Translations under genes and position numbers: made by a program
Origin: Bacillota bacterium
Lineage (GTDB): Bacteria > Bacillota > Clostridia > DSM-8532
Reading direction: 5' to 3'
NCBI GenBank assembly: GCA_022702935.2
Contig: JAKIML020000019.1
Location: 1 to 62,880 of the forward strand
Length of the DNA: 62,880 nucleotides
Notes under the pieces: model-generated
Told to the model about the DNA's origin: nothing
What the model saw: the letters and a program-made list of their open reading frames with translations, nothing else
Databases searched by the model: none
Shown here: in pieces, positions 1,746 through 18,646 of the stretch
Position numbering within the stretch: position 1 is the stretch's first letter
Layout of the letters: each line of letters starts with the position of its first letter

Positions 1746-1756
1746 GGAATTAACAT

Positions 1757-2320
1757 ATGAGGATCATTGAAACGAATATAAAAGATTTGTTAATTATTGA
1801 GCCCCAGGTTTTTCGTGACAGCAGAGGATGGTTCATTGAAAGCTACTCAAAAGTAAAGCTTAAAGAGCAGGGATTGGATTGTGATTTTGTTCAGGATAAT
1901 CATTCCTACTCGGCTCAGAAAGGAACCTTACGTGGCCTTCATTTCCAATTGGCCCCTAAGGCACAAGCAAAGCTAGTGCGTTGCACAAGGGGTGCTATAT
2001 GGGATGTGGCCGTGGATCTGCGCAAAGGCTCTCCTACTTATAAAAGGTGGCTGGCAATAGAGCTTTCGGCGGAGAATAAAAGGCAGTTTTTTATCCCAAA
2101 GGGATTTGCCCATGGTTTTGTGACCATAACAGATGATGTGGAAGTTCAGTATAAGACTGATGAATACTATTCTCCTGAACATGACCGTAGTATTGCCTAT
2201 GACGACCCAGAGATAAATATATCCTGGAATATTGAAAATCCTATCCTATCTGCCAAGGATAAAGCAGCGCCTCTCTTATGTGACAGTGATGTAAATTTTG
2301 AGTATCAGGGAGATTTTTGA
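1757..2320 (+). CDS. rmlC: dTDP-4-dehydrorhamnose 3,5-epimerase
   Basis: Third step of dTDP-L-rhamnose synthesis, epimerising C3 and C5 of the 4-keto-6-deoxy sugar nucleotide. The 187-aa cupin has the diagnostic segment LRGLHFQ, with His62 as the probable catalytic base. The KGFAHGF and YKTDEYY segments hold the substrate-binding and acid residues. It lies between rmlA and rmlB, and rmlB begins two bases after its stop, so the genes are probably translationally coupled. Confidence 0.96.
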   Translation: MRIIETNIKDLLIIEPQVFRDSRGWFIESYSKVKLKEQGLDCDFVQDNHSYSAQKGTLRGLHFQLAPKAQAKLVRCTRGAIWDVAVDLRKGSPTYKRWLAIELSAENKRQFFIPKGFAHGFVTITDDVEVQYKTDEYYSPEHDRSIAYDDPEINISWNIENPILSAKDKAAPLLCDSDVNFEYQGDF

Positions 2321-2322
2321 AA

Positions 2323-3342: not shown

Positions 3343-3370
3343 ATATGAAATTTGAATATGTGGTGGAAAT

Positions 3371-4216
3371 ATGAAAGTGCTTGTAACAGGTGTTAAGGGT
3401 CAACTCGGATATGATGTTGTCAAAGAACTGGAAAAAAGAAAAATTGAATGTCTCGGTGTGGACATTGATGACTTTGATATAACCGATGAGACTGCAGTAA
3501 CGGCCTTTATAAAAAATTATAACCCCGGTGCAGTTATACATTGTTCGGCTTACACGGCTGTGGATAAGGCTGAGGACAATCCGGAACTTTGTAGAAAAGT
3601 CAATGCAGAAGGATCTCGAAATATAGCACGAGTTTGCAGAGAAATCAATGCAAAAATGATTTACATTAGCACAGATTATGTTTTTTCCGGAACTGGTGAC
3701 CAACCTTATGAGGTTGACGATCCTACAGGTCCAACTTCGGTTTATGGCATGACTAAGCTTGAGGGAGAATGGGCAGTAAAAGAAGTTCTCCAGAAGTACT
3801 TTATTGTGCGTATTTCTTGGGTATTTGGAAAAAACGGCAATAACTTCGTGAAGACAATGCTGCGGATTGGGAAAGAGCGGGATGAGGTGAATGTGGTATG
3901 TGATCAAATTGGATCACCCACCTATACGTCAGACCTTGCTCCCTTGCTTTGTGATATGGTTGCTTCAGAAAAGTACGGTACTTATCATGCCACAAATGAA
4001 GGTTATTGCTCATGGGCCGAATTTGCGCAGGAGATATTTAAGCAGGCGGACTATTCAACAAATGTCAGGTATATATCCACATCAGAATATCCCACTAGAG
4101 CAAAGCGACCTTCTAATTCTAGGATGAGCAAGAAAAGCCTTGACAAAGCTGGTTTTAAAAGACTATCTTCATGGAAGGATGCGCTTAGTAGATATTTAAA
4201 TGAGATTGCTTTATGA
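3371..4216 (+). CDS. rmlD: dTDP-4-dehydrorhamnose reductase
   Basis: Last step of the pathway, NAD(P)H reduction to dTDP-L-rhamnose. The 281-aa protein has an N-terminal GVKGQLG dinucleotide fold (residues 7-13), an ISTDYVFSG segment and the catalytic YGMTK tyrosine-lysine pair. It completes the rml set. The next gene, the glycan exporter permease, starts 11 bp after its stop, so sugar activation and export are probably co-transcribed. Base composition drops sharply to AT-rich just after this gene. Confidence 0.95.
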   Translation: MKVLVTGVKGQLGYDVVKELEKRKIECLGVDIDDFDITDETAVTAFIKNYNPGAVIHCSAYTAVDKAEDNPELCRKVNAEGSRNIARVCREINAKMIYISTDYVFSGTGDQPYEVDDPTGPTSVYGMTKLEGEWAVKEVLQKYFIVRISWVFGKNGNNFVKTMLRIGKERDEVNVVCDQIGSPTYTSDLAPLLCDMVASEKYGTYHATNEGYCSWAEFAQEIFKQADYSTNVRYISTSEYPTRAKRPSNSRMSKKSLDKAGFKRLSSWKDALSRYLNEIAL

Positions 4217-4227
4217 GGTTTTAGGCT

Positions 4228-5004
4228 ATGAATATTTATATAAGAAAATTCTGGTCATATAAGGATCTGCTATTTGAATTAGTAAACCGCGATATAAAAT
4301 TAAAATATAGAAGATCTTTTTTGGGTTATTTATGGACTTTGTTGAATCCTCTATTTATTATGCTTATAACTACAGCTGTATTTTCCCAAATATTCCGGTT
4401 TTCTGTTGAAAATTATCCGATATATATTTTGTCTGGGCAAATCATTTTTACTTTTTTTTCAGAGTCAACAACAACCGCTATGAACTCTATTTTAGGGAAT
4501 GCTAGTTTTTTAAGGAAAATATACGTTCCAAAATATATTTTTCCTGTTTCTAGGGTAATATCATCATTCGTTAATTTACTATTTGCTTTAGTAGCAATGA
4601 TAATTATGATGGTAATTTTCAAAGTACCGATAACATGGCATATATTATTTATTCCGTTACCTTTAATTTGCATATTTTTATTCTGTACTGGCCTTGGATT
4701 AATATTGTCTGTTTTAGCAGTCTATTTTAGGGACGTAATACACATTTATAATGTTCTTTTAACAGGATTAATGTATTTTACTCCATTATTTTATCCTGTT
4801 GATATTTTACCCAATGTTATTTTTAAATTAATGCATATTAATCCTATGTACCACTTCGTTACCTATTTTCGTTCTTTGTTATATATGGGAGAATTCCCTT
4901 CACTGGAGCAAAATATTTTATGTATGGGTATATCGCTTTCTTTTTTACTTATTGGATTAGCATTTTTTAAAGAAAGGCAATCTAAATTCGTACTTTACAT
5001 TTGA
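4228..5004 (+). CDS. wzm: Polysaccharide ABC exporter, permease
   Basis: Membrane subunit of an ABC-2 type exporter that moves an undecaprenyl-linked glycan across the cytoplasmic membrane. The 258-aa protein has about six hydrophobic segments and the family start pattern ELVNRDIKLKYRRSFLGYLWTLLNP. It is followed 10 bp later by its ATPase. This pair family (Wzm/Wzt, TagG/TagH) exports finished chains, unlike the Wzx flippase found in the second locus. The gene is strongly AT-rich compared with rmlD. The exported glycan is inferred to be rhamnose-containing from the adjacent rml genes. Confidence 0.92.
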   Translation: MNIYIRKFWSYKDLLFELVNRDIKLKYRRSFLGYLWTLLNPLFIMLITTAVFSQIFRFSVENYPIYILSGQIIFTFFSESTTTAMNSILGNASFLRKIYVPKYIFPVSRVISSFVNLLFALVAMIIMMVIFKVPITWHILFIPLPLICIFLFCTGLGLILSVLAVYFRDVIHIYNVLLTGLMYFTPLFYPVDILPNVIFKLMHINPMYHFVTYFRSLLYMGEFPSLEQNILCMGISLSFLLIGLAFFKERQSKFVLYI

Positions 5005-5014
5005 GGTGTAGATA

Positions 5015-5749
5015 ATGAATGAGTATGCAATTGAAGTTAATAATGTTAGTATGTTATTTAATCTTTCAAGTGAAAGAATTGATAATATAAAAGAATATAT
5101 TATAAAAAAGATACACAGAAAATTAACCTTTGAAAATTTTTACGCATTAAAAAATGTTTCATTTAATGTAGAAAAGGGAGATGCAGTTGCAATTATTGGT
5201 GATAATGGTTCTGGAAAGAGTACATTACTAAAGGTTTTAGCAGGAATTTATAAACCCACTACCGGTACTGCAACTGTACGGGGATCGATATCTCCTTTAA
5301 TAGAACTTGGTGCAGGATTTGATATGGAACTTACTGGCAGAGAAAATGTGTATCTAAATGGATTAATGTTAGGCTATAGTAAAAGGTTTATACGAGACAA
5401 TTTTAATGATATCGTAGAGTTTGCCAGTTTATGGGATTTTATAGATATACCTTTAAAAAATTATTCTTCTGGTATGCTTGCTAGGCTAGGTTTTGCTATT
5501 TCTACTATTGTAAAACCGGATATACTAATTGTGGACGAGATTTTGGCAGTTGGTGATATAGTTTTTCAACGAAAATGTAATAAGAAAATGCAGGAGCTGA
5601 TGAGCGGTGGGACTACCTTATTATTAGTTTCTCATGATTTAAATGAAATACGTAGAATATGCAATAAAGCTGTATGGATACATCAAGGTGGAGTTGTCAA
5701 AATAGGTGAGGTTTCTGAAGTTTGTAATGCATACAGTGACCTTAGGTGA
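5015..5749 (+). CDS. wzt: Polysaccharide ABC exporter, ATPase
   Basis: ATP-binding subunit partner of the preceding permease. Walker A is GDNGSGKST, the signature is YSSGMLARL, and Walker B is ILIVDEIL followed by the switch segment SHDLNE. At 244 aa it stops at the end of the nucleotide-binding domain. It therefore lacks the C-terminal carbohydrate-binding domain that longer Wzt proteins use to recognise a terminal chain modification. The next gene, 9 bp downstream, is a methyltransferase with a coiled coil, the type of enzyme that sets chain length in such systems. Confidence 0.93.
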   Translation: MNEYAIEVNNVSMLFNLSSERIDNIKEYIIKKIHRKLTFENFYALKNVSFNVEKGDAVAIIGDNGSGKSTLLKVLAGIYKPTTGTATVRGSISPLIELGAGFDMELTGRENVYLNGLMLGYSKRFIRDNFNDIVEFASLWDFIDIPLKNYSSGMLARLGFAISTIVKPDILIVDEILAVGDIVFQRKCNKKMQELMSGGTTLLLVSHDLNEIRRICNKAVWIHQGGVVKIGEVSEVCNAYSDLR

Positions 5750-5758
5750 TGGTGGGTT

Positions 5759-7414
5759 ATGACAAAATATAATGTGGGATTGAATCCTAATGAAGAAAAT
5801 GAAGCAGGAGCTAAAATAGTACGGCTTATTTCTAAGGAAAGTGTGATCTTAGAATTTGGACCTGCTTACGGAAGAATGACAAGATATTTAAAAGAAAATT
5901 TACATTGTAGTGTATATATTGTTGAGCAAGACAAAGCAGCTTATGCAGAAGCTCTTAAATATGCAGTAGATGGTATATGTGGAGATATTTCAGATTTAAA
6001 GTGGGCGGAAACATTCAAAAATATACATTTCGATTTCATTATTTTTGCGGATGTCTTGGAACATCTCCATGATCCTTACGTAGTTGTCAGTAAGGCAGTT
6101 AAGCTATTAAAGGATAATGGGAGTATTCTTATTTCTGTACCTAATATATCACATAATGATATTTTAGTAAATCTATATCAGAATAAATTTGAATACACTC
6201 AAATAGGTCTTTTAGACAAAGATCATATTCATTTTTTTACATATCACACATTGCAAAAGTTGGCTTACGAAACGGGTTTAATAATTAAGCATATAGATGC
6301 TGTTACGGTTAATATTGGTAAGACTGAGCAAAAGGTTAATCTAAATGAAGTTCCTGAAGATTTCTATCAAAGTATTTTAAATCATGCTTACGGTAACGTT
6401 TACCAATTTGTGTGTTCTTTGCAAAAAGGAGAATGGGATAATTCTAAGACATTTAATAAATTGACAGGATACGGAAACTTAATCAGTGCAATTCATTATG
6501 ATATAGGCGAAGGTTTTATGGAGGAACCTTTACTAGCAAGTGCTAATTTTAATCACGAACGTAATAACTATTTTATTTCTTTTAATATCCCAGAGGGTTG
6601 TCTAGCGTTGCGTTTTGATCCTATAGAAAGTCCATGTAAAGTTAAAGTTATTTCAGCGGAAACAAATGACGGCAATATTATGTTAAAAGCAGGGAATGCT
6701 GATCTTACGGAGGATGGATTTGATTTTTTCAGTACTCCTGATCCAATTTACTATGTTGTGTCGCCGGATACCAGGAATATTAGAACTGTGAAAATTACTT
6801 GGGAGATGTATGATCTTCGAGATAATGACTATAAAAAATTAGTAGATATATTAAGTAAAAAAAATTATCAATTAAGAGAGGAAAGAGATATAAACATATC
6901 CGCGATAAATTCATTAAAAAATCAAGTACAAGCATATGATAAAGAATTTAAAGAAAAAGACAAAATAATAAATCAAATGTACCAAACTGTAGAAAAGATG
7001 CAGAATCAATTGCAAGAATATGATTCAATTTTTAAGCAAAAGGATAAAGATATCAAAGAACTAATAAAGAGTTATGACATTCATTTTAAAGAAAAGGATA
7101 AATTTATTAAAGATTTATATGAAGTAATAGATGAGTTGCAAAAGCAAGCAATAAATTACGATAATATGTTTATACAAAAAGACAAAGATATAGCATCGTT
7201 AAACAATAGGATTTCAGAGCTTGAGACAATTATTAAGGAAAAAGAAGACCATCTAGAGTGGCTAAAAAATGAGAAGGAAGTAATTTCATTAGAACTAACA
7301 CAATTAATTGATGATAAGAATAAAACGATAAAGTCACTGACAGAAAAATTACAAAAAATTTATGATTCGAAATTCTGGAACTTATTTAGAATAATAAACA
7401 AGATTAATGAATAA
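5759..7414 (+). CDS. SAM-dependent methyltransferase with repeat-built coiled coil
   Basis: Residues about 25-200 form a class I methyltransferase: motif I is LEFGPAYGRM, and the later FADVLEHLHD and ILISVPNISH are typical of the family. Residues about 215-350 form a beta-rich domain. From about 360 to 540 a charged coiled coil contains four copies of a unit starting YD-x3-F-x-x-KDK. It sits directly behind wzm/wzt. By analogy with chain-terminating methyltransferases such as WbdD and WsaE, it may cap and measure the exported glycan. The ruler role is inference; the methyltransferase fold and coiled coil are plain in the sequence. Confidence 0.82.
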   Translation: MTKYNVGLNPNEENEAGAKIVRLISKESVILEFGPAYGRMTRYLKENLHCSVYIVEQDKAAYAEALKYAVDGICGDISDLKWAETFKNIHFDFIIFADVLEHLHDPYVVVSKAVKLLKDNGSILISVPNISHNDILVNLYQNKFEYTQIGLLDKDHIHFFTYHTLQKLAYETGLIIKHIDAVTVNIGKTEQKVNLNEVPEDFYQSILNHAYGNVYQFVCSLQKGEWDNSKTFNKLTGYGNLISAIHYDIGEGFMEEPLLASANFNHERNNYFISFNIPEGCLALRFDPIESPCKVKVISAETNDGNIMLKAGNADLTEDGFDFFSTPDPIYYVVSPDTRNIRTVKITWEMYDLRDNDYKKLVDILSKKNYQLREERDINISAINSLKNQVQAYDKEFKEKDKIINQMYQTVEKMQNQLQEYDSIFKQKDKDIKELIKSYDIHFKEKDKFIKDLYEVIDELQKQAINYDNMFIQKDKDIASLNNRISELETIIKEKEDHLEWLKNEKEVISLELTQLIDDKNKTIKSLTEKLQKIYDSKFWNLFRIINKINE

Positions 7415-7429
7415 CTTTTGGAGGTAAAT

Positions 7430-8653
7430 ATGCATTTTTTCACAAGTGTTACAGCAAATTATATCCCAAAGGCCCGCATTTTAGCTAAAACGTTAAAGCA
7501 ATATAATCCCACGGCTTATTTTATACTTGCACTTTCTGACAATTTACCAGAACATTTTAATCTTGAAGACGAGCCATTTGATGATATATTGTTAACGGAT
7601 CAACTTCCTATAATTGAATCACCTAAATCGTTTTTTTTTCGTCATAATATTACAGAGGTCTGTACAGCAGTTAAACCCGGCTGTGCACTTTATATTATGG
7701 AGAAATTTGGTGCAGAAAAAGTCTGCTATTTAGATCCTGATATAGCTGTTTTTTCAGAGCTAATAGAGGTAGAAGAAGCGCTTAATACGTATAGTATGAT
7801 TTTTACACCACATACAACTATCCCTGAAGAACGCGAAAATTATATAGTAGGAAATGAAATTCTCTTCTTAAAACGCGGTACATACAATCTGGGATTTTTT
7901 GCTGTTAAGAATGATGAAGAGGGCAAAAAATTTTTGTCCTGGTGGAATAAGAGACTTATGAAATTTTGCTTGGATGATGATTACACTTTATTGGAACTTT
8001 TAGATGAGCAAGGTTTGTTGGGATTATTCACAGATCAGAAATGGATAGATTTGGTTCCCTCGCTTTTTGATAATTACCATATACTAAAACACCCTGGATA
8101 TAATGTTTCTACCTGGAATTTATCAAACAGGATAGTAACGAAGGATAAGAATGGGCTTTACTTAGTTAACGGAGAACCCCTTAGGTTCTTTCACTTTTCT
8201 GGAGTAGATTCAGGAGCACATTCAATAGTTCTTTCCCAACTAAATGATTTCTATCCGCATACAAAGACCGTCAATGAAATAAGCAAATGGTACTTGGAGC
8301 AAGAAAAATTAGCGGGTGAAGATGAGTGGAAAAAAGTTGAGTGGAAATATACACGTTATGAGAATGGCTTGATAATTCCCAAAGTTCATAGAAAAATTAT
8401 GCTCATACGTAGAGATACGCATCCATATTTTTCAAATCCCCTAGAGGTACATGAAGGATTTTGCTTTTATAACTGGATGATGAATGAATATGGAGAGTAT
8501 ATAGCTTCCAAAAAGGTTGAAGCAAGCCATATATATCAAAAGAAGGATAGTCTAGTAATTAAATGCTTAAAAAAATTTATTCGGAAATTCGTTCCGGAAA
8601 AGTCTAGACTGTATAATAAATTAAAGAGGATTTGGAAAGCTATAAAATCCTAA
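7430..8653 (+). CDS. Putative glycosyltransferase, GT-A fold with DPD motif
   Basis: The N-terminus MHFFTSVTANYIPKARILA and the motif YLDPDIAVF match nucleotide-diphospho-sugar transferases of the GT8-like type, in which DPD binds the metal. A second landmark, FFHFSGVD, probably holds the C-terminal metal-binding histidine. ATG at 7430 is used because GGAGG lies at 7420-7424; an in-frame TTG at 7418 precedes that site and cannot use it. It belongs to the AT-rich block between the exporter and the phosphonate genes. Donor and acceptor are unknown. Confidence 0.75.
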   Translation: MHFFTSVTANYIPKARILAKTLKQYNPTAYFILALSDNLPEHFNLEDEPFDDILLTDQLPIIESPKSFFFRHNITEVCTAVKPGCALYIMEKFGAEKVCYLDPDIAVFSELIEVEEALNTYSMIFTPHTTIPEERENYIVGNEILFLKRGTYNLGFFAVKNDEEGKKFLSWWNKRLMKFCLDDDYTLLELLDEQGLLGLFTDQKWIDLVPSLFDNYHILKHPGYNVSTWNLSNRIVTKDKNGLYLVNGEPLRFFHFSGVDSGAHSIVLSQLNDFYPHTKTVNEISKWYLEQEKLAGEDEWKKVEWKYTRYENGLIIPKVHRKIMLIRRDTHPYFSNPLEVHEGFCFYNWMMNEYGEYIASKKVEASHIYQKKDSLVIKCLKKFIRKFVPEKSRLYNKLKRIWKAIKS

Positions 8654-8666
8654 GAGGTAATTTAAA

Positions 8667-9686
8667 ATGGCTAAACTAAGTGTTGTTATTGCTACATATA
8701 ACGGTGAAAAGTATATTGTTGAGCAATTAAAATCTATCGTTTCGCAAACAAGGCGTCCAGATGAGATTGTTTTAGTTGATGATGCATCAAAGGATAACGT
8801 GTTTTCTTTGGCTAGAGACTTTTTAATAGAGGCAAATATTCCTTTCGTGGCTCATAAAAATTTAAATAATCTAGGCTATATGAAAACTTTTGAATCAGCT
8901 TTGAAAATGGCAACAGGTGACTATATAGCTTTTTCTGATCAAGATGATGTATGGCAAAAAAATAAGTTGGAAAAACTCTTCAGCAGTATGAAAAAATTAG
9001 AAAGTATGTATGGATTAAATGTTCCGTTTATTACGTTTTCGGATGTAGCGATTGTGGATAGCTGCTTGAATGTTATATCTAATTCTTTTGACAAAACCCA
9101 GAAGCTATATATAGAAAAAACAAGTCAGTCTTTTAGGAAACTCTGTGTCCAAAATGTTGTAACTGGAATGTCAATGATGATAAACAGGACTTTAAAAGAA
9201 CTCGTGTTGCCTTTTCCAGATAATGCAATTCATCATGATTGGTGGATTGCATTAGTTTGTGCTAAACAAGGTAAGATAGAGTATATAAAAGAGCCATTAG
9301 CGTATTATAGACAACATGATACAAACACCTTAGGAGCTAAGTTGTACGATGATGTTGTTTGGTTCTATAGAATCCGAACAAATATCAATAAGCCTAAAGA
9401 AGTTAAAAAATATATTAGAGATATGAAATATGAGCTATATGAGAACTATAGATGTCATGTAATAAAACATAGCAAGCAAAAATTGGAATTGATCAAATTA
9501 TTTCCTAATGATAAAGTGTTCTTAAGTAAAGTTGCGTATCATTTACAAAGAGGTGGTATAACCTCTGTCATTTGGTTAACTGTCCATAATGTTTTGCCAC
9601 CAAGTTGGCAAAGGAAAATATTCTTTTGCTTATCTATGTTAAAACGGCATAATGTTGAAAGGAAAAGAAGTCATGGGCAAAAGTAA
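8667..9686 (+). CDS. Glycosyltransferase family 2
   Basis: A complete 339-aa GT-A enzyme. The N-terminus SVVIATYNGEKYI and VDDASKD bind the nucleotide, SDQDDVW supplies the metal aspartates, and HHDWW plus YYRQHD are acceptor-side landmarks of rhamnosyltransferase-like members. It is similar in layout to the truncated enzyme at the left edge of the window. GAGGT just upstream supports the ATG. It overlaps the next gene by 14 bp. With rmlACBD upstream, a rhamnosyltransferase is plausible but not shown. Confidence 0.88.
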   Translation: MAKLSVVIATYNGEKYIVEQLKSIVSQTRRPDEIVLVDDASKDNVFSLARDFLIEANIPFVAHKNLNNLGYMKTFESALKMATGDYIAFSDQDDVWQKNKLEKLFSSMKKLESMYGLNVPFITFSDVAIVDSCLNVISNSFDKTQKLYIEKTSQSFRKLCVQNVVTGMSMMINRTLKELVLPFPDNAIHHDWWIALVCAKQGKIEYIKEPLAYYRQHDTNTLGAKLYDDVVWFYRIRTNINKPKEVKKYIRDMKYELYENYRCHVIKHSKQKLELIKLFPNDKVFLSKVAYHLQRGGITSVIWLTVHNVLPPSWQRKIFFCLSMLKRHNVERKRSHGQK

Positions 9687-11118
9687 CAGCATAATAAAAC
9701 AGATAGCAAAATCACTATTGTATATATTTGTTGTTTGTAGTTATCCCCCTATATTTATATTTGCACAAAACGCTGCGGAAGCACAAATTTTTAGTATATG
9801 TTTACCTATAGCGGTCAATTTAGTTTTTGGTATAATTGTTCTTTGTTTAAGCCTGGTTGTAACACGTTCTTTAATTCAAAGCACCTTTGTTTCAATGGTA
9901 TTAACATTTATTTTAATTAATTACAGATTAATAGAGACTCTTATACAAAAAGCGATTCCCTATTTAAAATACTGGCATATATTACCACTTGTTTTCTTTG
10001 TTGCTCTTCATATTTTTTATATTATAACCAAAACGATTTCCAAAGAAAGTATATATTTAACAAACAAAGTGATATTTTGTGTTGTTGGTGCACTAATACT
10101 ATTTAATTTAGCTTTAGCAACACCTGCAATTATTAATAAAGTCAACTTAAGTACTAATAGTTCTACTAAAAATAAAATAAACCCTAGTGAAGTAGGTACC
10201 GGAAAACCCAATGTTTATTATTTGATATTTGATGAATATTCAGGGTTTGAAGTAATTAAAAATTACTACGGCTATGATAATAGAGAATTCTATGACTACT
10301 TAACTAATAAAAAGTTTTCAGTATCTACGAACAGTTATAATGAAGCATCAGATACTACTGTTGTTATTACCAATTATATGAGTTTGGATTATGTTGTAGA
10401 CGAAAGTGTGGATGTGGCGACAAGAACAAGGTATAGAACCAACGCTAAGCTTTTCAAGCTTCTTGAAGAACATGGGTATGACGTTAGGGGTGTAGGTTTA
10501 TCAGAATTTATGGGTTTACCTTCTATTATAGGTAGTAATGATATTGAGGCGACGACTATTACAGGTGAAAACATATACGAGATACTTATGAAGAATACTT
10601 TTTTGTATCCATTCATAAAGAGTAACACTTCAAAAGATGCAGAATTAGTTCTGGACACTATTGAGTACATGAAAAATAAGAGTAATTTTAATCCGAATAG
10701 CTCTATGATGACAATGCTTTATTTATGCATACCTCACCAACCTTTTATTTTTGATAAAGACGGCAAAATGGTAAATGTTGAAAATCAGAACAATTGGCGT
10801 GATAAAAAGTATTATTTAGAACAGTATATTTACACTACTAAACTTATAGTGGAATGTGTTGATTCGATTACAACCAATGATCCAAATAGTATTATTATTT
10901 TACAATCTGATCATAGTGCCCGCGCATCCTCTGATATTGAATTGCATGGAAATTTTATTAGCCAAAAAGATATGACTAATATTTTAAATGCTGTTTATTT
11001 TCAAGGGGAATCAATTGATGAGATTTTAGGTCAATCCGGTTTAAATACACTTAGAATAACTCTCAGCAAATTGTTGAATACAGAGATGCCAGTTCTGGAG
11101 GTTCCTTTTAATGAATAA
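9673..11118 (+). CDS. Alkaline-phosphatase-superfamily (sulfatase/phosphotransferase-like) membrane protein
   Basis: About four to five hydrophobic segments in the first 160 residues are followed by an extracytoplasmic hydrolase/transferase domain. KPNVYYLIFDEYSG gives the first metal aspartate, SDTT the probable nucleophile threonine, and QSDHSARAS the second metal site. The family includes LTA synthase and phosphoethanolamine transferases as well as sulfatases. ATG at 9673 follows a purine-rich site; ATG at 9652 in the same frame is possible. It overlaps the preceding and following genes, so it is in the same operon. Next to a phosphonate/phosphodiester module, it could transfer or remove a phospho-group on the glycan; this is inference. 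Confidence 0.75.
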   Translation: MGKSNSIIKQIAKSLLYIFVVCSYPPIFIFAQNAAEAQIFSICLPIAVNLVFGIIVLCLSLVVTRSLIQSTFVSMVLTFILINYRLIETLIQKAIPYLKYWHILPLVFFVALHIFYIITKTISKESIYLTNKVIFCVVGALILFNLALATPAIINKVNLSTNSSTKNKINPSEVGTGKPNVYYLIFDEYSGFEVIKNYYGYDNREFYDYLTNKKFSVSTNSYNEASDTTVVITNYMSLDYVVDESVDVATRTRYRTNAKLFKLLEEHGYDVRGVGLSEFMGLPSIIGSNDIEATTITGENIYEILMKNTFLYPFIKSNTSKDAELVLDTIEYMKNKSNFNPNSSMMTMLYLCIPHQPFIFDKDGKMVNVENQNNWRDKKYYLEQYIYTTKLIVECVDSITTNDPNSIIILQSDHSARASSDIELHGNFISQKDMTNILNAVYFQGESIDEILGQSGLNTLRITLSKLLNTEMPVLEVPFNE

Positions 11119-12376
11119 GCTTTTTAAACCTAAATATGTAATTTATTTCATTGTATTAATATGGTTTGTTTTTTATTTAATATATGCCAATAAGTTCGTT
11201 GCTTTTATTGTTTCTGATGAGTACAGCTTTTATGAAGCAGATTTTCTATCATATGACTCAAACTCAGAAGTTATCTTTTCTCTTTCCAATGTTACAATTA
11301 ATAGGGATTTAAAGGAGACGTTAAGCATTAATGGAATTGCCTTCTGCGAAACTGATAAAGATAATAGTAATAAAAGAATTGAACTGATTTTAAAATCTGA
11401 TAATAAGGCGTACGCTGCTAAAATGCCGGTTCAATACAGAAAAGATATATACTTAAAATTTTCGGAATCTAGTCAGTTGGGCGGCGACTACTTATATATT
11501 GCATGCAACTTACCAACAATTGGATTGGATGAGGGGGTGTATGAGTTGTATGTTTATGTATGGGAAAATGATCAAAACTATGGGATCAAGAAAACAGGCT
11601 TGAGATTTTTAAAGGATAGAAATGGTATAAAAAGGTATATTTCTTCAGAGGCAAAGATGTTAAATATACCTATTAATGACATTAGATACAATATAGATAA
11701 TGTTGAAAAAGTAGATGATGGAATTCAAATTTTGGGATGGGCTTATATTCCAGGTAAAGATTCAAAATATCAAGATGTTTATATTGAAGTAAATGGTATT
11801 CAAAATAAGGTATACAAGGCCACAAGCTATTATAGAGAAGATGTAGGAACATTTTATGAAGATCCAAATTTAAATAGTAGTGGTTTTATCTGCATAGTAC
11901 CTCAGGATGCTGTTAAAGATAATGATTTTGATTTCAAAATAATAATTGATAATAAATGGGGGAATTCAATTCAGTTGGATAATACAGAAGTAAGTGAAGA
12001 AGTAGATGATAAGCGAATAGTAATTAATGAAAAAGAATTTTTAGGAAGTATTGATAGGATTTTTAAAATGAATAATAGACTTGTCGTACAAGGTTGGGCT
12101 GCTATAGAAAATTTCGATTCAAAAAATATATTTCCATTCGTCCAAGTTTTATTAGAAGATGATATTAGCCAGATGTTTCAGACGACGAAGATGGAACGAC
12201 CTGATGTTGTCGAGTATTTTAATAATTCGCTCTACTTAAGTAGTGGATATATAGCATATTTACCAGAGAATATAAATAACAGCAAGAAATGGTATATACG
12301 GAGCGTAATAAAAGTTGGGGATGAATATTTTGCAGGCCAGTATATAGATTCTTCCACACTTAATATCGAAAAGTGA
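11111..12376 (+). CDS. Membrane-anchored surface protein with three tandem repeats, function unknown
   Basis: One N-terminal membrane segment (about residues 8-32) is followed by an extracytoplasmic region with no catalytic motif that I recognise. That region appears to be three copies of a domain of about 100 residues, starting near residues 57, 195 and 315. The second and third copies share a GWA-x-I core, a later R-x-DV, and SSGFI or SSGYI followed by a proline. GGAGG 9 bp upstream supports the start, and it overlaps the preceding gene by 8 bp. It probably works with the preceding membrane enzyme. The gene is very AT-rich like its left neighbours. Confidence 0.6.
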   Translation: MNKLFKPKYVIYFIVLIWFVFYLIYANKFVAFIVSDEYSFYEADFLSYDSNSEVIFSLSNVTINRDLKETLSINGIAFCETDKDNSNKRIELILKSDNKAYAAKMPVQYRKDIYLKFSESSQLGGDYLYIACNLPTIGLDEGVYELYVYVWENDQNYGIKKTGLRFLKDRNGIKRYISSEAKMLNIPINDIRYNIDNVEKVDDGIQILGWAYIPGKDSKYQDVYIEVNGIQNKVYKATSYYREDVGTFYEDPNLNSSGFICIVPQDAVKDNDFDFKIIIDNKWGNSIQLDNTEVSEEVDDKRIVINEKEFLGSIDRIFKMNNRLVVQGWAAIENFDSKNIFPFVQVLLEDDISQMFQTTKMERPDVVEYFNNSLYLSSGYIAYLPENINNSKKWYIRSVIKVGDEYFAGQYIDSSTLNIEK

Positions 12377-12442: not shown

Positions 12443-14341
12443 ATGAATTCTGTTATATCTATCTTTTCAAAACTTCTTGAATACATTATGACATTATGCT
12501 TCAATTTGTTACAAAACTATACTTTTGCAATTATCTTGTTTACTCTTCTGACAAAAGTTATTTTGCTGCCAATATCAATATGGGTTCATAAGAACAGCAT
12601 TAAGATGGTTGGCTTAATGCCGGAATTGAATCGAATTAAGATAAAGTATTATGGTGATGGGGATACTATTGCTGAGGAACAGCACACCTTATATAAACGG
12701 GAAAAGTACCATCCATTAGCCAGCATAATTCCAACACTCATTCAAATTATTCTGCTTATGGCACTTATACAGATAATAAATGGCAATCTGGGGGAATCTG
12801 CCCTTACCCTTATACCCATAGAAGCTAAAGGGCTATCTTTACTGATGCCGATTGCCGCAGGGCTGTCGGCGTTTATACTCTCTATCGTACAGGATAGAAT
12901 TAATCCATTACAGAAAGAACAGAGTCGTCTCAGCCAAATAATGACTATGTCAATTTCAGTGGGAATTTCGCTGTTTCTTGGTGCATTTGTTTCCATAGGT
13001 GTCGGTTTGTACTGGATATGCAGCAATCTGTTTACAATCTTCCAACAACTGTTTTTAAATGCTGTCATACCACCCTATAAGTATATCAATTATAAAGAAC
13101 TTGAAGAGAGTAAAAAGGCACTTGAGGAGATCAATGCACTCGGTGCAGGACAGAAGAAATGGTTTAAAAAGGATCCCTATCGGAGGCGGGAAAAGGAAGA
13201 TTATAAACGTTTCTTTTCAATAGCCAATAAGCATCTTGTGTTCTATTCAGAAAAGAGTGGATTTTATAAGTATTTCGAGAACATTATTATTGAACTGATA
13301 CGAAGATCGAATATAACTATACATTATGTGACCAGCGATCCAAACGATCAGATCTTTGATATTGCGAAGAAACAGCCCAGAATAAAACCCTATTACATAG
13401 GGGAAAAGCGCCTTATTACGCTCATGATGAAGATGGATGCGGATATGGTGGTGATGACCATGCCGGATCTTAATCAATTTCATTACAAACGTTCATATAT
13501 AAGAAAGGATATTGAATACGTATACATATTCCACTATCCATTGAGTACTCACATGGTCTTAAGAAAGGGTGCATTGGACTACTATGACACCATTTTTTGT
13601 GTAGGCGATTTTCAGTTTAATGAAATACGTGAGACTGAGAAATTGTATAACCTTCCGCAGAAAAATCTAGTTTCTGTGGGCTATGGCCAACTAGAGAAGC
13701 TTTATGACAGTTACAGTAAAATGCAAAGTGTAAAACGTGAACACAAAAAAGTATTGATAGCACCGTCATGGCAACCTGACAATATACTTGACAGTTGTAT
13801 CGATGAGTTGCTTACGGCTTTATTAGGCAAGGGTTATCAGGTTGTTGTTAGACCACATCCAGAGTATGTCAAGCGATATGGTTCTAAAATGGATGCAATT
13901 GTTAAGCGATATAGTGATTATCAAGGTGGAGATTTAAGTTTTGAGCTTGATTTTACTTCTAATACATCTATTTTTGATTCTGATGTGGTTATAACAGATT
14001 GGTCGGGAACAGCCTATGAGTTCTCTTTTGTTACTAAAAAACCATCTATCTTCATTAATACACCACCAAAAATCAACAATCCAGATTATATCAAGCTGTC
14101 TATGGAACCACTAGAGATCAGCCTGAGGGATAAGATTGGTATACAGGTGGAAACAAAGAATCTAAGCAACATGGCTGAAGTTATTGATAAGTTGATTCAG
14201 TCGAAAGACGTTTATTCTCGTGATATCACATCTATAGTGGAAAGGTATATTGCAAACTTTGGAAAAAGTGGTGAGGTAGGGAGTAAATACATTATAAGCA
14301 GATTGGTCGAGAAAGGATCGAAGAAGTCATATGTTGGTTAA
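12443..14341 (+). CDS. YidC-like membrane domain fused to TagF-like (CDP-glycerol) phosphotransferase
   Basis: Residues 1-210 look like a YidC/Oxa1 insertase core: a first helix with FTLLTKVILLPI, an amphipathic hairpin with ELNRIKIKYYGD, the HPLASIIPTLIQI segment, and a last helix with GLYWICSNLFTIFQQ. The conserved Arg of the first helix is replaced by Lys38. After a charged linker (about 215-260), residues 262-632 match CDP-glycerol glycerophosphotransferases, with RPHPEYVKRYG and TDWSGTAYEFSFVTKKPSIF. The gene overlaps phosphonopyruvate decarboxylase by 11 bp and heads the phosphonate operon. I infer that it transfers a CMP-activated hydroxyethylphosphonate (or similar) to a membrane-bound glycan, with the YidC part as anchor or lipid-substrate site. 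Confidence 0.85.
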   Translation: MNSVISIFSKLLEYIMTLCFNLLQNYTFAIILFTLLTKVILLPISIWVHKNSIKMVGLMPELNRIKIKYYGDGDTIAEEQHTLYKREKYHPLASIIPTLIQIILLMALIQIINGNLGESALTLIPIEAKGLSLLMPIAAGLSAFILSIVQDRINPLQKEQSRLSQIMTMSISVGISLFLGAFVSIGVGLYWICSNLFTIFQQLFLNAVIPPYKYINYKELEESKKALEEINALGAGQKKWFKKDPYRRREKEDYKRFFSIANKHLVFYSEKSGFYKYFENIIIELIRRSNITIHYVTSDPNDQIFDIAKKQPRIKPYYIGEKRLITLMMKMDADMVVMTMPDLNQFHYKRSYIRKDIEYVYIFHYPLSTHMVLRKGALDYYDTIFCVGDFQFNEIRETEKLYNLPQKNLVSVGYGQLEKLYDSYSKMQSVKREHKKVLIAPSWQPDNILDSCIDELLTALLGKGYQVVVRPHPEYVKRYGSKMDAIVKRYSDYQGGDLSFELDFTSNTSIFDSDVVITDWSGTAYEFSFVTKKPSIFINTPPKINNPDYIKLSMEPLEISLRDKIGIQVETKNLSNMAEVIDKLIQSKDVYSRDITSIVERYIANFGKSGEVGSKYIISRLVEKGSKKSYVG

Positions 14342-15470
14342 AGATTTTCTTGATATACTTTATGATGAGCTGCGGGTGAATTTTTTTACGGGAGTTCCTG
14401 ACTCACAACTAAAATCCCTGTGCGATGAACTATACGTCAGATATGGGATTGGTTCTAAACATATTGTTGCAGCTAATGAAGGAGCAGCAGTTGGTATTGC
14501 TGCAGGCCATTATATTGCATCCGGCCGGCCAGCTCTCGTATATCTGCAAAATAGCGGCATAGGTAATATTTTAAATCCAGTTGCCTCATTACTCAGTGAG
14601 AAGGTATATGCTATTCCATGTGTTTTTGTGGTAGGCTGGAGAGGAGAGCCGGGAGTAAAAGATGAGCCACAGCATGTTTTCCAGGGTGAGATAACTATAG
14701 ATCTGCTTGAGCTCTTGGGAATCAAATGCTTCATTCTTTCTAAGGAAACACAACTAGAGGATTACAGAAGGTTTATTGAAGAGAGCAAAAGTGTAATCAA
14801 AGAGGGAAAAAGCATTGCCCTAATAGTAAGAAAAGGAACGCTTAAGTCCGATGTCTCAGTAGATTTCAAAAATGAAAAAAAGTTACTGAGAGAGGATGCA
14901 ATCAAGACCATTGTTGCCCAGTCGGGGGAGAGAGATATTTTTGTCACCACTACTGGTAAAACTTCAAGGGAACTTTTTGAAATAAGAGAATCTTTGAACC
15001 AGGGTCATCAAAAAGATTTCTTGACCGTAGGCTCCATGGGACATAGTTCAATGATAGCTCTGGGAATTGCCCTTAATGTTCCAGACAGAAGAGTTTGGTG
15101 CATTGATGGCGATGGTGCAATGGTTATGCATCTTGGAAGTATGTTGGTCTTAGCAAAGACAGGATGTAAAAATCTTGTTCACGTTGTGATAAATAATGGT
15201 GCCCATGAAAGCGTGGGCGGTATGCCTGTTGCGTATGGAAGGACAAGCTTTTTGAGCTTAGCAAAGGAAGCCGGGTACGAGATGTGCTTATCTGTCGCGA
15301 CCCAAACAGAGCTGGATACTGCATTAGCAAAAGTAAAGAAAAGTAATTGTATCTGCTTTATTGAAATTCATACTGCATTGGGCTCAAGAGAGGATTTAGG
15401 AAGGCCAACAACTACTCCTCAGGAAAATAAAAAAGCTCTGATGGACTATATAAGAGAAAGCAGGCTTTGA
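14331..15470 (+). CDS. aepY: Phosphonopyruvate decarboxylase
   Basis: Thiamine-diphosphate enzyme that decarboxylates phosphonopyruvate to phosphonoacetaldehyde, pulling the unfavourable PEP mutase reaction forward. N-terminal FFTGVPDSQLKSLCDEL is diagnostic of the family. The cofactor motif runs from IDGDGAMVMHLGS to INNGAHESVGG, and VAANEGAAVGIAAGHY holds the activating glutamate. The length of 379 aa is normal for the single-chain form. It overlaps the genes on both sides or nearly so, which indicates tight operon structure. Confidence 0.94.
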   Translation: MLVKDFLDILYDELRVNFFTGVPDSQLKSLCDELYVRYGIGSKHIVAANEGAAVGIAAGHYIASGRPALVYLQNSGIGNILNPVASLLSEKVYAIPCVFVVGWRGEPGVKDEPQHVFQGEITIDLLELLGIKCFILSKETQLEDYRRFIEESKSVIKEGKSIALIVRKGTLKSDVSVDFKNEKKLLREDAIKTIVAQSGERDIFVTTTGKTSRELFEIRESLNQGHQKDFLTVGSMGHSSMIALGIALNVPDRRVWCIDGDGAMVMHLGSMLVLAKTGCKNLVHVVINNGAHESVGGMPVAYGRTSFLSLAKEAGYEMCLSVATQTELDTALAKVKKSNCICFIEIHTALGSREDLGRPTTTPQENKKALMDYIRESRL

Positions 15471-15472
15471 TT

Positions 15473-16204
15473 ATGAAAGCACTTTTACTAAACTCAGGAT
15501 TAGGGAGCAGGATGGGTGTACTAACCGAAAATCATCCCAAGTGCATGTGCCCCATTAACGATGTTTACACCATTATCAGCTGGCAGCTGGAGCTGTTAAG
15601 TAAGAATGGCATCAAAGAGGTTGTTGTTACAACAGGCCCATTTGCAAATATACTGGAAGAGCATATTTTGTCTCAAGAATACAATTTTAAATATGTGTTT
15701 GTTAACAATCCTATTTATAAAGAGACCAATTACATTTATTCAATGTATTTGGCTAGAAATTATCTCGATGATGATATACTCCTGTTCCATGGGGATCTCG
15801 TAATGGAGCCTTCTGTTGTTGCTGATCTAATTCAGCAGAAGTATAGTACAGTTACGGTTGATAGTTTGCTTCCTCTTCCGGAGAAAGATTTTAAGGCTAA
15901 GCTGAAGGGTGAAAGAATTAATGCAATTGGAATTGAGTTCTTTGGTGAGGATTGTGTTGCCTGCCAGCCTGCCTATAAGTTGCTATATAAGGATCTCAAA
16001 TTTTGGATGGAGAAAATAGTAGAATTTTGCGAACGCGGAGAAACAAAGGTTTATGCAGAAAGTGCCCTAAATTGTATTCTTGATAGAATTGCTCTTTATC
16101 CTTTAGAGCTTAATAAATGTCTCTGTAATGAGATTGATAATGTTAATGATTTAAATTTAATTAAGAATACTTTTCATGAGCGATCAGGTATGTGGAGGAA
16201 GTAA
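15473..16204 (+). CDS. LicC/PntC-like nucleotidyltransferase
   Basis: A 243-aa nucleotidyltransferase with LNSGLGSRMGVLTENHPKCM at the N-terminus (sugar-nucleotidyl pattern), LLFHGDLVM for the metal aspartate, and a C-terminal EIDNVNDL, as in choline-phosphate and aminoethylphosphonate cytidylyltransferases. ATG 15473 is preferred over TTG 15467, which overlaps the previous stop. It ends one base before the PEP mutase gene. It probably activates a phosphonate (2-hydroxyethylphosphonate or aminoethylphosphonate) with CTP. The neighbouring fusion protein carries a second, unrelated cytidylyltransferase domain, so the division of labour is open. Confidence 0.82.
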   Translation: MKALLLNSGLGSRMGVLTENHPKCMCPINDVYTIISWQLELLSKNGIKEVVVTTGPFANILEEHILSQEYNFKYVFVNNPIYKETNYIYSMYLARNYLDDDILLFHGDLVMEPSVVADLIQQKYSTVTVDSLLPLPEKDFKAKLKGERINAIGIEFFGEDCVACQPAYKLLYKDLKFWMEKIVEFCERGETKVYAESALNCILDRIALYPLELNKCLCNEIDNVNDLNLIKNTFHERSGMWRK

Positions 16205-17497
16205 ATGAAACAGGTTTATATGTGCTTCAGCACAGATATCATACACAATGGGCATATTAATATTATTCAAAGAGCAGCAGAGCTGGGGGAACTGACTGTT
16301 GGTGTTTTGACTGATGAGGCAGTAGCTAAATATAAAAGATATCCGCTTATTCCTTATGAGGAACGCATGGCAATGTTCAGAAACATAAAAGGTGTTTCAA
16401 AAGTCGTCGTACAGGACAGGCTTGAATATGATGATATTCTTCAAAAGCTGAAACCTGATATTGTGGTGCATGGAGATGACTGGCGAACTGGATATCAAGC
16501 GAAAATAAGGGAGAGAGTTATTGAGCTTCTTAAGGGTTGGAATGGCGAGTTGATAGAATTCCCCTACACCCATTCTTCAGCAGATGAAACCTTAAGTAAC
16601 CTCGATCAGAAGCTATATATGCCAGAAAACAGACGTTGCAGGTTAAAAAAGCTATTGCAATATAAACCTTGTATATCGGTAATAGAGGCTCATAATGGGT
16701 TAACTGGTTTAATTGCTGAACACACAAAGATTGAAAACGAAAAAGGTATAAAACAGTTTGATGCTATGTGGGTTTCGAGCCTTTGCGATTCAACCGTAAA
16801 GGGTAAGCCCGATATTGAATTAGTGGATATGACTTCACGCATTAATACCCTGGAAGAAATTATGGAAGTTACCACTAAACCCATTATTCTGGATGGAGAC
16901 ACAGGGGGACTCACTGAGCACTTTGTTTTCAATATTAAGACGTTGGAACGTATTGGCGTTTCTGCTGTAATTATTGAAGATAAAACAGGACTTAAAAAGA
17001 ATTCATTGTTTGGGACACAGGTCCATCAGACCCAAGATGCTATAGAGAGTTTCTGCGAAAAAATACAAGCGGGAAAAAGCGCACTTAAAACTAAGGATTT
17101 TATGATAATAGCCCGCTGTGAAAGCCTAATCCTTAATAAAGGTATGGATGATGCTCTTGAGAGATGCCAGGCCTATGTTGAAGCTGGTGCAGATGGGATT
17201 ATGATTCACTCATGTCAGAAGGAGCCTGATGAAATTCTTGAGTTCTGTAATAAATTCCGGGAAATAAATCAGTTTACACCTTTGGTTGCTGTTCCAACCA
17301 CATATAACACTATTACTGAGGATGAATTGGCAGCTGTAGGGGTAAACATTGTTATTCATGCAAATCACCTTTTGAGAAGTGCATTTCCTGCCATGCAGAA
17401 GGTTGCTAGGCTTATCCTTGAAAACTCTCGGTCTTACGAGGCTGACCAACACTGTATGCCAATTAAAAGTATCCTAACTTTGATTCCTAATGAATAG
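16205..17497 (+). CDS. aepX: Cytidylyltransferase-PEP mutase fusion
   Basis: Two enzymes in one 430-aa chain. Residues 1-135 are a TagD/GCT-type cytidylyltransferase: CFSTDIIHNGHINII gives the HxGH site, and a later HSSADETLS region stands where the ISTT-like motif lies. Residues about 155-430 are PEP mutase, which makes the C-P bond from phosphoenolpyruvate to give phosphonopyruvate. The diagnostic EDKxxxxxNS reads EDKTGLKKNS, with LDGDTGG binding Mg. GGAGG precedes the ATG. PEP mutase is the marker of phosphonate biosynthesis, so this gene fixes the meaning of the whole module. Confidence 0.95.
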   Translation: MKQVYMCFSTDIIHNGHINIIQRAAELGELTVGVLTDEAVAKYKRYPLIPYEERMAMFRNIKGVSKVVVQDRLEYDDILQKLKPDIVVHGDDWRTGYQAKIRERVIELLKGWNGELIEFPYTHSSADETLSNLDQKLYMPENRRCRLKKLLQYKPCISVIEAHNGLTGLIAEHTKIENEKGIKQFDAMWVSSLCDSTVKGKPDIELVDMTSRINTLEEIMEVTTKPIILDGDTGGLTEHFVFNIKTLERIGVSAVIIEDKTGLKKNSLFGTQVHQTQDAIESFCEKIQAGKSALKTKDFMIIARCESLILNKGMDDALERCQAYVEAGADGIMIHSCQKEPDEILEFCNKFREINQFTPLVAVPTTYNTITEDELAAVGVNIVIHANHLLRSAFPAMQKVARLILENSRSYEADQHCMPIKSILTLIPNE

Positions 17498-17512: not shown

Positions 17513-18646
17513 GTGCAATATATACCTTTTTCACCCGTTGAAATAGTATTTTCTTCAAGAATAGATGCTATTAAGTATCTTGATGGCGTGGTTTCTGCTA
17601 ATGAGACATGTTTGCTATTAGCCAGCGAAGGTCGTATCCTTGAGTTAGGGCTTGAAAGCTTGATTGATAATCTAAGAGAAAAGGATGTCGTACATCTTAG
17701 ACAGATCCCTAGAAATCCTGATATCACCGATGTGTACCATTATTTAAAAGTACTACAGGGAGTTAACCCATGCAAAATTATTGCCATCGGAGGTGGCAGT
17801 TGTATAGATTTGGCCAAGGCTATCAGTGCCCTATATTATCAGATTCCGTCGGAGCAATTGTCAGTGGAGCTTGTGCGTAAAGTTATTAAAGAAAAAAAGT
17901 ACCTTAGCCAGCATCCCTTTATAGATATTATTGCAGTTCCCACTACTGCAGGGACAGGTTCTGAGGTTACGAAATGGGCGACTATTTGGGATATGACAAG
18001 TAAAGAAAAGTTTTCTATTGAAAGTGTGGACATTTTTCCCAAGGTAGCTCTTATTGTGCCCGAATTTACCAGTTCTATGCCTGAACGCTTAACGCTTTCA
18101 TCGGGACTAGACGCTCTTTCACACGCAATGGAGGCATTTTGGGCGAATAGGCGAACCCCTTTGTCTCAATTATTAGCATTAAAGGCTATAGAGCATATTA
18201 AGAACTACCTGCCGCAGGTATTGCAAAAGCCTAGCGATGTATGCCTTAGAAGAGAAATGAGTCTTGCTTCACTACTTGCTGGCTTGGCTTTTTCAATTAC
18301 AAGAACAACCGCCTGTCACTCTATATCATATCCTCTGACTATGTACTGTGGTGTTGACCACGGTTTTGCTGCAGCAATGACACTTATTCAAGTGGCAGAG
18401 CTTAACGAAATGGTGTTGGATGATATGCATAGAATATATTCTATCTTTGGTAGTAAAGCATCACTAAAACAATGGCTTGGTGAAATATCACTCCCTATAC
18501 AGGAGCTACGGTTATCGGCTTTTGGGATTAATAAGAGTGAACTGGACATCATTGCAAGGAATGCATTTACTCAAGGACGGATGGATAATAACCCGGTGCC
18601 TTTCTCTCAAAAAGAAGTATACGATATTTTATTACAGGTGTTATAG
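17513..18646 (+). CDS. Iron-containing alcohol dehydrogenase, probable phosphonoacetaldehyde reductase
   Basis: A 377-aa group III (metal-dependent) alcohol dehydrogenase. GGGSCIDLAKA binds NAD(P), and VPTTAGTGSEVT is the family signature. All four metal ligands are visible: Asp200, His204, His269 and His283. GTG at 17513 follows GGGAGGAGG at good distance. Directly after PEP mutase and decarboxylase, the natural substrate is phosphonoacetaldehyde, giving 2-hydroxyethylphosphonate. No aminotransferase is present in the module, which argues against 2-aminoethylphosphonate as the product. Confidence 0.88.
   Translation: MQYIPFSPVEIVFSSRIDAIKYLDGVVSANETCLLLASEGRILELGLESLIDNLREKDVVHLRQIPRNPDITDVYHYLKVLQGVNPCKIIAIGGGSCIDLAKAISALYYQIPSEQLSVELVRKVIKEKKYLSQHPFIDIIAVPTTAGTGSEVTKWATIWDMTSKEKFSIESVDIFPKVALIVPEFTSSMPERLTLSSGLDALSHAMEAFWANRRTPLSQLLALKAIEHIKNYLPQVLQKPSDVCLRREMSLASLLAGLAFSITRTTACHSISYPLTMYCGVDHGFAAAMTLIQVAELNEMVLDDMHRIYSIFGSKASLKQWLGEISLPIQELRLSAFGINKSELDIIARNAFTQGRMDNNPVPFSQKEVYDILLQVL

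Follow-up and report, generated by a model that had tools for sequence, protein, structure and literature searches.

Why would an enzyme of the TagF type, normally expected to build polymers at the inner membrane face, be fused to the fold of a membrane protein insertase inside a phosphonate operon? The question is raised by a gene at positions 12443-14341 of a 62,880-nucleotide stretch of contig JAKIML020000019.1 from a Bacillota bacterium (the window, hereafter always at its full length). We find that its product is a conserved combination of a YidC core with a TagF/TarL-type domain in one protein, and that this transferase travels with an extracytoplasmic LtaS/EptA-like protein of the alkaline phosphatase (AP) fold, an association that is new here. 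The three modules remain associated while being reshuffled between proteins, and a variable activation pathway accompanies the constant transferase. Together, they probably form a three-part, mix-and-match machine for decorating the cell surface with phosphonates and related phosphorus groups, and the insertase fold may have been given a new task in it, moving lipid-borne groups through the membrane. The family bears on the question of how activated phosphonates arrive at the cell surface, for which it names candidate enzymes of transfer on both membrane faces. It also offers a direct, testable case of an insertase fold moving lipids in a biosynthetic pathway. A literature search with few subscription papers within reach returned no paper that connects a YidC domain with enzymes of the TagF-like or sulfatase-fold kind.

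The YidC-TagF fusion and its family

An earlier note, made from the DNA alone, had described a YidC-like core and a TagF-like domain in a single open reading frame (ORF), and both halves were recovered by profile and by fold. Pfam assigned residues 26-206 to PF02096 (60KD_IMP; E 6e-34, 117.8 bits against a cut-off of 35) and residues 399-537 to PF04464 (Glyphos_transf; E 3.3e-9, 36.6 bits against 22.1). Within NCBIfam, TIGR03592 scored 102.3 bits, above its cut-off of 84.3, and the other 19 YidC models listed all fell under theirs (e.g., NF002803, 60.9 against 377). The quoted motifs LTKVILLPI, HPLASIIPTLIQ, GLYWICSNLF, and TDWSGT are present in the translation. Read by eye, with no signal program, the N-terminus carries no usual lipobox; Cys19 is almost invariant. 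An AlphaFold2 model built from a 61-row alignment reached a mean predicted local distance difference test score (pLDDT) of 89.2 and a predicted template modeling score (pTM) of 0.67. Its N-terminal part showed the YidC fold, the check that the earlier note had proposed, matching Bacillus halodurans YidC (3wo7) with Z 19.0 and a root mean square deviation (rmsd) of 2.5 Å over 198 residues. Five long core helices and a helical hairpin at about residues 49-86 are visible in the model.

The C-terminal part matched TagF (3l7i) with Z 21.0 and rmsd 5.9 Å over 342 residues, and TarL (8va1) with Z 20.7, at 14-18% identity in the fold alignments of this domain. Since UDP-GlcNAc 2-epimerases, which share the GT-B fold, score Z ~20, close behind TagF, the fold by itself cannot single out TagF; we make the assignment because the sequence profiles do (PF04464, and a profile comparison with TarL at E 0.0022). 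Across all 61 alignment rows, H364, R470-P471-H472-P473, and D519-W520-S521 are invariant. H364 and the H472 of the RPHP motif are candidate counterparts of the catalytic His residues of TagF. The proposed transferase of TagF type, embedded in the membrane and encoded in a phosphonate cluster, is thus borne out for both domains by Pfam and by fold.

A scan with one genome per species gave 66 loci, from which two (L069 and L070) were removed as ordinary YidC proteins; in the tree described below they still count toward the 27 YidC rows that belong to neither fusion type. Locus counts hereafter refer to the remaining 64 plus the window, or 65 in total. The alignment comprises the query and 60 of the 64 loci, omitting L013 (a near copy of L012) and L063, L064, and L068 (cut by a contig end). 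These 60 relatives are 41-63% identical to the query, so the fusion is more than a chance event. Gene positions in the loci are approximate, coming from a crude ORF caller. Pfam was run on representatives of neighbor clusters, with remaining members assigned through BLAST clusters or their own profiles; the clustering kept the focal gene in 63 of 65 loci and missed L021 and L036, which are nevertheless counted by profile. Record titles point mostly to Clostridia or families within them, and some name Treponema, Coriobacteriales, an actinobacterium, Victivallales, and Verrucomicrobia. Many are metagenome-assembled genomes (MAGs); L016, L017, L031, and L056 (and the unaligned L013) are titled as strains. 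Within the class sample, the fusion was absent from all 10 other genomes of the genus and all 8 other genomes of the family, and this rarity in its own group suggests a recent acquisition by the lineage of the window.

A gene for activating a phosphorus group lies near the fusion in 42 of 65 loci: phosphoenolpyruvate (PEP) mutase in 20, a phosphoramidate-like trio in 3, a nucleotidyltransferase-CobD-like fusion in 9, and another nucleotidyltransferase in 10. A genome-wide search, drawn from 50 of the 64 loci with L056 left out, found PEP mutase anywhere in 25 of 49 genomes, many of them MAGs and perhaps incomplete. The linkage to activation genes that the earlier note anticipated for homologues therefore held, whereas linkage to PEP mutase itself extended to just these 20 loci and 25 genomes, and with other activation types elsewhere an exclusively phosphonate function was not sustained. 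Because activation genes differ between loci, the transferase appears constant while the phosphorus group seems to vary, and phosphonate is probably one of several cargoes.

The trio follows YidC-TagF directly and consists, by Pfam on representatives, of a PPDK_N/PEP-utilizer kinase, a relative of gamma-glutamyl-CDP-amidate hydrolase, and a nucleotidyltransferase. NF045546 matched it at E 1e-38 and 133.4 bits, under the cut-off of 250. Presumably the three genes and their enzyme names correspond one by one to members of cj1415-cj1418 of Campylobacter jejuni. The available part of PMC3907429 gives cj1415-cj1418 as the C. jejuni phosphoramidate set, and the trio of L018, L022, and L065 resembles part of it. 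The nucleotidyltransferase-CobD-like protein perhaps makes CDP-ethanolamine or CDP-aminopropanol.

Several gene arrangements near the fusion merit mention in their own right. The nucleotidyltransferase joined to a CobD-like pyridoxal phosphate (PLP) domain occurs in L027, L028, L030, L034, L037, L040, L041, L066, and L068 and is about 607 amino acids long (Pfam on the L030 copy). In L047 (12785-14974), a nucleotidyltransferase, an RmlD-type reductase, and a phosphoribosyltransferase are combined in one protein, with a clustered relative in L055. A DUF2284 metal-binding protein adjoins a nucleotidyltransferase near the fusion in L029 and, by cluster, L063. L017 carries two YidC-TagF genes in opposite orientations within one locus.

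An AP-fold partner and the exchange of the YidC module

The candidate partner in the window, P0002 (9652-11118), matched no Pfam family at E 0.01, and a PDB search with P0002 by itself returned nothing credible, as did one with a small P0002-type profile. Compared with the main sulfatase-fold partner type, however, the P0002-type profile gave a probability of 98.6%. A model of P0002 (pLDDT 83.1) aligned to EptC (6a82) with Z 19.1 and rmsd 4.2 over 260 residues, with true sulfatases scoring about equally; it also fits YejM, MCR-1, and LtaS, among general sulfatases. The main partner type does match PF00884 (Pfam on representatives), and its closest solved relative is LtaS (E 4.7e-13). In a column chosen by eye, 8 of 9 P0002-type sequences have Thr as the putative nucleophile and one has Ser, with D420 and H421 invariant; in the main type it is Thr in 33 of 38 and Ser in 5. 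We take the Thr/Ser to be the nucleophile and the D-H pair to be metal ligands by analogy with the LtaS/EptA motifs.

A sulfatase-fold membrane protein is the commonest neighbor of the fusion (34 loci by clustering) and is the immediate upstream-side neighbor in 19. With partner-type profiles, an AP partner was found in 52 of 65 loci, and in 24 of the 28 with a stretch of at least 21 kb. For comparison, PF00884 proteins gave 81 matches in 26 genomes, or ~3 per genome, which puts the chance of such a gene in a 22-kb stretch of a 2.8-Mb genome at ~2-3%, a yardstick only, as the profiles and cut-offs differ. The earlier note, which does not mention this partner, had proposed direct decoration of a lipid-linked glycan; so closely linked a protein of the LtaS/EptA type, acting outside the cytoplasm, would instead speak for a lipid-borne donor used outside.

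The same modules occur in a second arrangement. We refer to the YidC-TagF fusion as architecture A and to a YidC-AP fusion as architecture B. A survey of 391 genomes of the class, queried with the fusion, which is free of any AP domain (E up to 1e-30), returned 18 TagF-like genes in 12 genomes (19 rows, two being pieces of one gene). Four are YidC-TagF fusions (the window, L076, L077, and L078), each with a separate sulfatase-fold gene nearby. The other 14 are standalone TagF proteins of ~405-450 amino acids, and the six inspected carry an N-terminal hydrophobic stretch of the YIDPGTG type. All 14 share a locus with a YidC-AP protein of 840-940 amino acids, in which the YidC domain comes first and the sulfatase-fold domain last (Pfam on representatives, profiles on the rest). 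The two genes adjoin in 13 cases; in the remaining one, of two in L074, they are three genes apart in the same run. When YidC-AP served as the query against a sample matched in size and kind, 11 genomes were returned, including all 9 with standalone TagF. A survey of 398 genomes of the phylum under the same E limit, in which three genomes of the class survey recurred among the matches, added two TagF-like genes: that of L152, which shares its locus with YidC-AP, and that of L151, considered below. In the two surveys together, an AP partner accompanies 20 of 20 TagF-like genes, and YidC is fused in 19, to the transferase in 4 and to the AP partner in 15. PEP mutase is also found in loci of the rearranged form (L073, L074, L150, and L152).

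All three modules meet in one 1466-aa frame of a MAG (L036:7475-11875), with AP at residues 10-828 (profile E 2.8e-150), YidC at 845-1070, and TagF at 1093-1458. Where AP meets YidC there is an internal ATG at 10001, preceded by a GGGAG stretch, and the two parts may be translated separately, or a stop codon may have been lost in that MAG. YidC-AP paralogues were also seen, five in genome G058 (L071, L072, L146, and L147) and four in G085 (L143-L145), which suggests several acceptors or cargoes.

To place the YidC modules, we built a tree of 78 YidC domains, comprising 31 of the 61 architecture A rows, 20 of architecture B, and 27 others. Each fusion type forms one clade with support of 100/100, and a single clade for both was rejected by the approximately unbiased (AU) test (p 0.0012), although the stem of architecture B is long, which makes its exact position unsure and weakens the AU test in the same way. 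The separate clades point to repeated recruitment of the YidC fold. The mean majority share is 0.604 in the YidC half and 0.612 in the enzyme half, and 14 of 181 positions of the YidC half are invariant; a fold recruited repeatedly and kept conserved is not readily explained as a mere anchor. Among 26 genomes checked with PF02096, 25 carry a further, non-fusion YidC, so housekeeping insertion does not have to fall to the fusion. The genome of the window has another YidC as well.

Lys38 of the fusion occupies the position of what we take to be R366 in Escherichia coli YidC, and this position is K or R in all 61 architecture A rows. The earlier note had read Lys38 as a sign of altered function, which fails in that the housekeeping YidC of the same genome has Lys too; as a marker of lost insertase function it was discarded on the same ground. 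The 27 rows outside both fusion families have K in 8, R in 10, N in 6, and Y in 3. A basic groove residue is thus not universal among the YidC proteins of these genomes. The 20 architecture B rows have N in 14, S in 3, Q in 2, and T in 1, and none is basic; an argument that this excludes an insertase was dropped, given the N or Y of 9 of the 27 other rows (L113, L115-L118, L120, L122, L124, and L125).

What the three modules may do together

We give an even chance to a scheme in which a CMP-activated phosphonate is loaded onto a lipid inside the cell, crosses the membrane by way of the YidC fold, and is transferred to a glycan outside. In it, the fusion would supply the cytoplasmic loader and the membrane module of a machine that decorates the surface with three modules. 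From their families, PEP mutase, phosphonopyruvate decarboxylase (Ppd), and the iron-containing alcohol dehydrogenase (Fe-ADH) would make the phosphonate, probably 2-hydroxyethylphosphonate, and the nucleotidyltransferase would convert it to a CMP ester. The TagF-like domain, on the cytoplasmic side, would move the phosphonate from CMP to a membrane lipid. The YidC-like domain, through a hydrophilic groove open to the lipid phase, might then pass the lipid-borne head group outward; this is the weakest step. Finally, the LtaS/EptA-type partner would move the group from the lipid to an exported glycan, as its fold and conserved Thr/Ser suggest. LtaS and EptA use lipid donors. The lipid that is loaded, its passage through the membrane, and the glycan that ultimately receives the group are all inferred, and the scheme predicts a phosphonolipid intermediate. 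Loading, crossing, and transfer in this order best explain why a loader inside, a YidC module in the membrane, and a transferase outside occur together, with YidC fused to either of its neighbors. According to the available part of PMC10491306, phospholipid scrambling by E. coli YidC has been observed in vitro, and simulations show the same activity for further members of the Oxa1 family. More tentatively, and at somewhat under an even chance, we propose two or more recruitments of the YidC/Oxa1 fold to take phosphonate-bearing or other phosphorus lipids through the membrane, in a three-module machine serving phosphonates, phosphoramidates, and other CMP-activated groups.

Several observations weigh against this scheme. 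No activation gene was found in 23 of 65 loci, some of them on short contigs, and no AP gene in the stretch examined of 13, of which six exceed 20 kb (L013, L017, L032, L034, L040, and L059); where PEP mutase is present (20 loci), the stretch includes an AP partner in 14. In the locus of L151 (G802), PEP mutase and two AP genes occur in the absence of any YidC module, which means that a fused YidC is not always required. Conversely, 7 of 23 architecture B loci examined have YidC-AP and no TagF in the stretch. In one MAG (G407), YidC-TagF and YidC-AP frames were the only YidC genes found. The pTM of 0.67 makes the relative placement of the domains in the fusion model untrustworthy. The acceptor of the TagF domain could be a glycan instead of a lipid. 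The scramblase result, in the part of PMC10491306 available, concerns E. coli YidC with glycerophospholipids and not fusion proteins.

The glycan acceptor leads to the alternative that we take most seriously, although we think it unlikely: on the cytoplasmic side, and ahead of ABC export, the TagF domain would act directly on a lipid-linked glycan whose lipid end docks on the YidC domain, while the AP partner performs a separate outer-face step. In essence this is the model of the earlier note. TagF and TarL act at the inner face on lipid-linked acceptors, and the rhamnose genes and ABC-2 exporter of the window make it probable that the glycan is assembled inside; left unexplained are the three-module frame of L036 and the fact that, in 15 of 20 loci surveyed, it is the AP partner that carries the YidC domain. 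Less probable again is a YidC domain whose clients, as an insertase or chaperone, would be the membrane proteins of this pathway in particular (the AP partner and the 421-aa protein), and which is fused for co-localization. PF02096 and TIGR03592 above cut-off and the basic residue at the R366 position in 61 of 61 architecture A rows are what an insertase would show. Yet 25 of 26 genomes have another YidC gene, and fusion to a cytosolic enzyme or to its own client would be odd for an insertase; the absence of a basic residue from all 20 architecture B rows counts weakly here, since 9 of 27 other YidC proteins also have none.

If YidC were instead a membrane anchor taken by chance, with no function for its groove, one could understand why six standalone TagF relatives carry an N-terminal hydrophobic stretch, as an anchor may be needed, and why the L151 relative, with no YidC module, still has adjacent AP genes. 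We find this distinctly improbable, as the YidC half is conserved like the catalytic half, with its 14 invariant positions of 181, and the same fold was recruited twice, once onto a partner that seemingly has its own membrane helices. An artefact of assembly or gene calling, suggested by the many MAGs among the relatives, is refuted by the family itself (61 aligned rows from many assemblies, four titled as strains), and we assign it a negligible probability.

GtrA/GtrB/Gtr and ArnC/ArnEF/ArnT combine inner-face lipid loading, flipping, and outer-face transfer. The proposed machine would work alike, as a functional analogy in which homology of parts is not expected, and the group transferred would bear phosphorus instead of being a sugar. 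With the TagF/TarL wall teichoic acid polymerases, the fusion shares the GT-B fold, PF04464 above cut-off, putatively equivalent invariant His/Asp motifs, and an expected CMP-activated donor. Unlike them, it has a YidC membrane module and activation neighbors for phosphonate, phosphoramidate-like, or other groups, suggesting CMP-activated donors other than CDP-glycerol or CDP-ribitol. TagF and TarL polymerize wall teichoic acid; the fusion, known here from sequence and model, may or may not polymerize. Its five-helix core with hairpin and family profiles above cut-off are those of YidC/Oxa1 insertases, and it may insert proteins; it carries a C-terminal enzyme in place of a short tail. The partner resembles LtaS, EptA, MCR, and YejM in its N-terminal helices, AP-fold domain, conserved Thr or Ser, and D-H positions, and differs from them in occurring with genes for nucleotidyltransferase-activated phosphorus groups and in being fused to a YidC domain in many relatives. 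Comparable in gene content are the PntC-type surface phosphonate clusters, which in the available text of Rice et al. 2019 (PMC6697681) likewise pair PEP mutase with a nucleotidyltransferase in a surface glycan setting. Its abstract describes tailoring downstream of PEP mutase as enigmatic before contributing the activation step itself; as available, the paper names LicD-like phosphotransferases, and its main text is without the words YidC, TagF, and Oxa1.

Genes around the fusion

The placement of the fusion inside a phosphonate operon, as the earlier note had it, agrees with the four downstream genes, the first of which (start 14331) overlaps the fusion by the 11 bp that the note had given. 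Features are collected in the table.

Table. Features of the window discussed in the text, in order of position
Feature	Positions	Strand	Basis
dTDP-rhamnose genes (RmlA, RmlC, RmlB, RmlD types)	855..4216	+	Pfam families
ABC-2 permease and ATPase, polysaccharide export type	4228..5749	+	Pfam families
551-aa methyltransferase, 411-aa protein without assigned family, GT2 glycosyltransferase	5759..9686	+	
P0002, 488 aa, N-terminal helices and AP-superfamily domain (~180-488)	9652..11118	+	LtaS/EptA-like partner
421-aa protein, N-terminal hydrophobic stretch (by eye)	11111..12376	+	No Pfam/NCBIfam match
YidC-TagF fusion, 632 aa	12443..14341	+	ATG start, uninterrupted ORF
YidC/Oxa1-like membrane module, residues 26-206	12518..13060	+	PF02096; 3wo7 fit
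TagF/TarL-like GT-B phosphotransferase module, residues ~260-625	13220..14317	+	PF04464; 3l7i fit; invariant columns
Ppd	14331..15470	+	TIGR03297 E 1.2e-133, 445.5 bits vs cut-off 312.5
PntC-like nucleotidyltransferase	15467..16204	+	PF12804/PF00483
CTP_transf-like domain fused to PEP mutase (PepM)	16205..17497	+	TIGR02320 E 2.3e-124, 414 bits vs cut-off 319.55
Fe-ADH	17513..18646	+	PF00465

The operon contains both PEP mutase and a nucleotidyltransferase, the combination that defines a nucleotidyl-activated phosphonate cluster. The PEP mutase has EDKTGLKKNS at residue 258, which fits the EDKXXXXXNS motif as defined in the available text of PMC6697681. Fe-ADH is probably a phosphonoacetaldehyde reductase; TIGR03405 gave it 248.6 bits, under the cut-off of 423.7. 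Since the downstream gene run of the window has no aminotransferase, 2-hydroxyethylphosphonate would be the likely product.

On the upstream side, we presume the Rml gene names at 855..4216. The methyltransferase at 5759-7414 ends in a long C-terminal coiled coil, and we take it to be reminiscent of O-antigen chain-length terminators of the WbdD type. The 421-aa protein belongs to a cluster (c9) that directly precedes the fusion in 5 loci, and its relatives sit between a P0002-type partner and the fusion in several loci.

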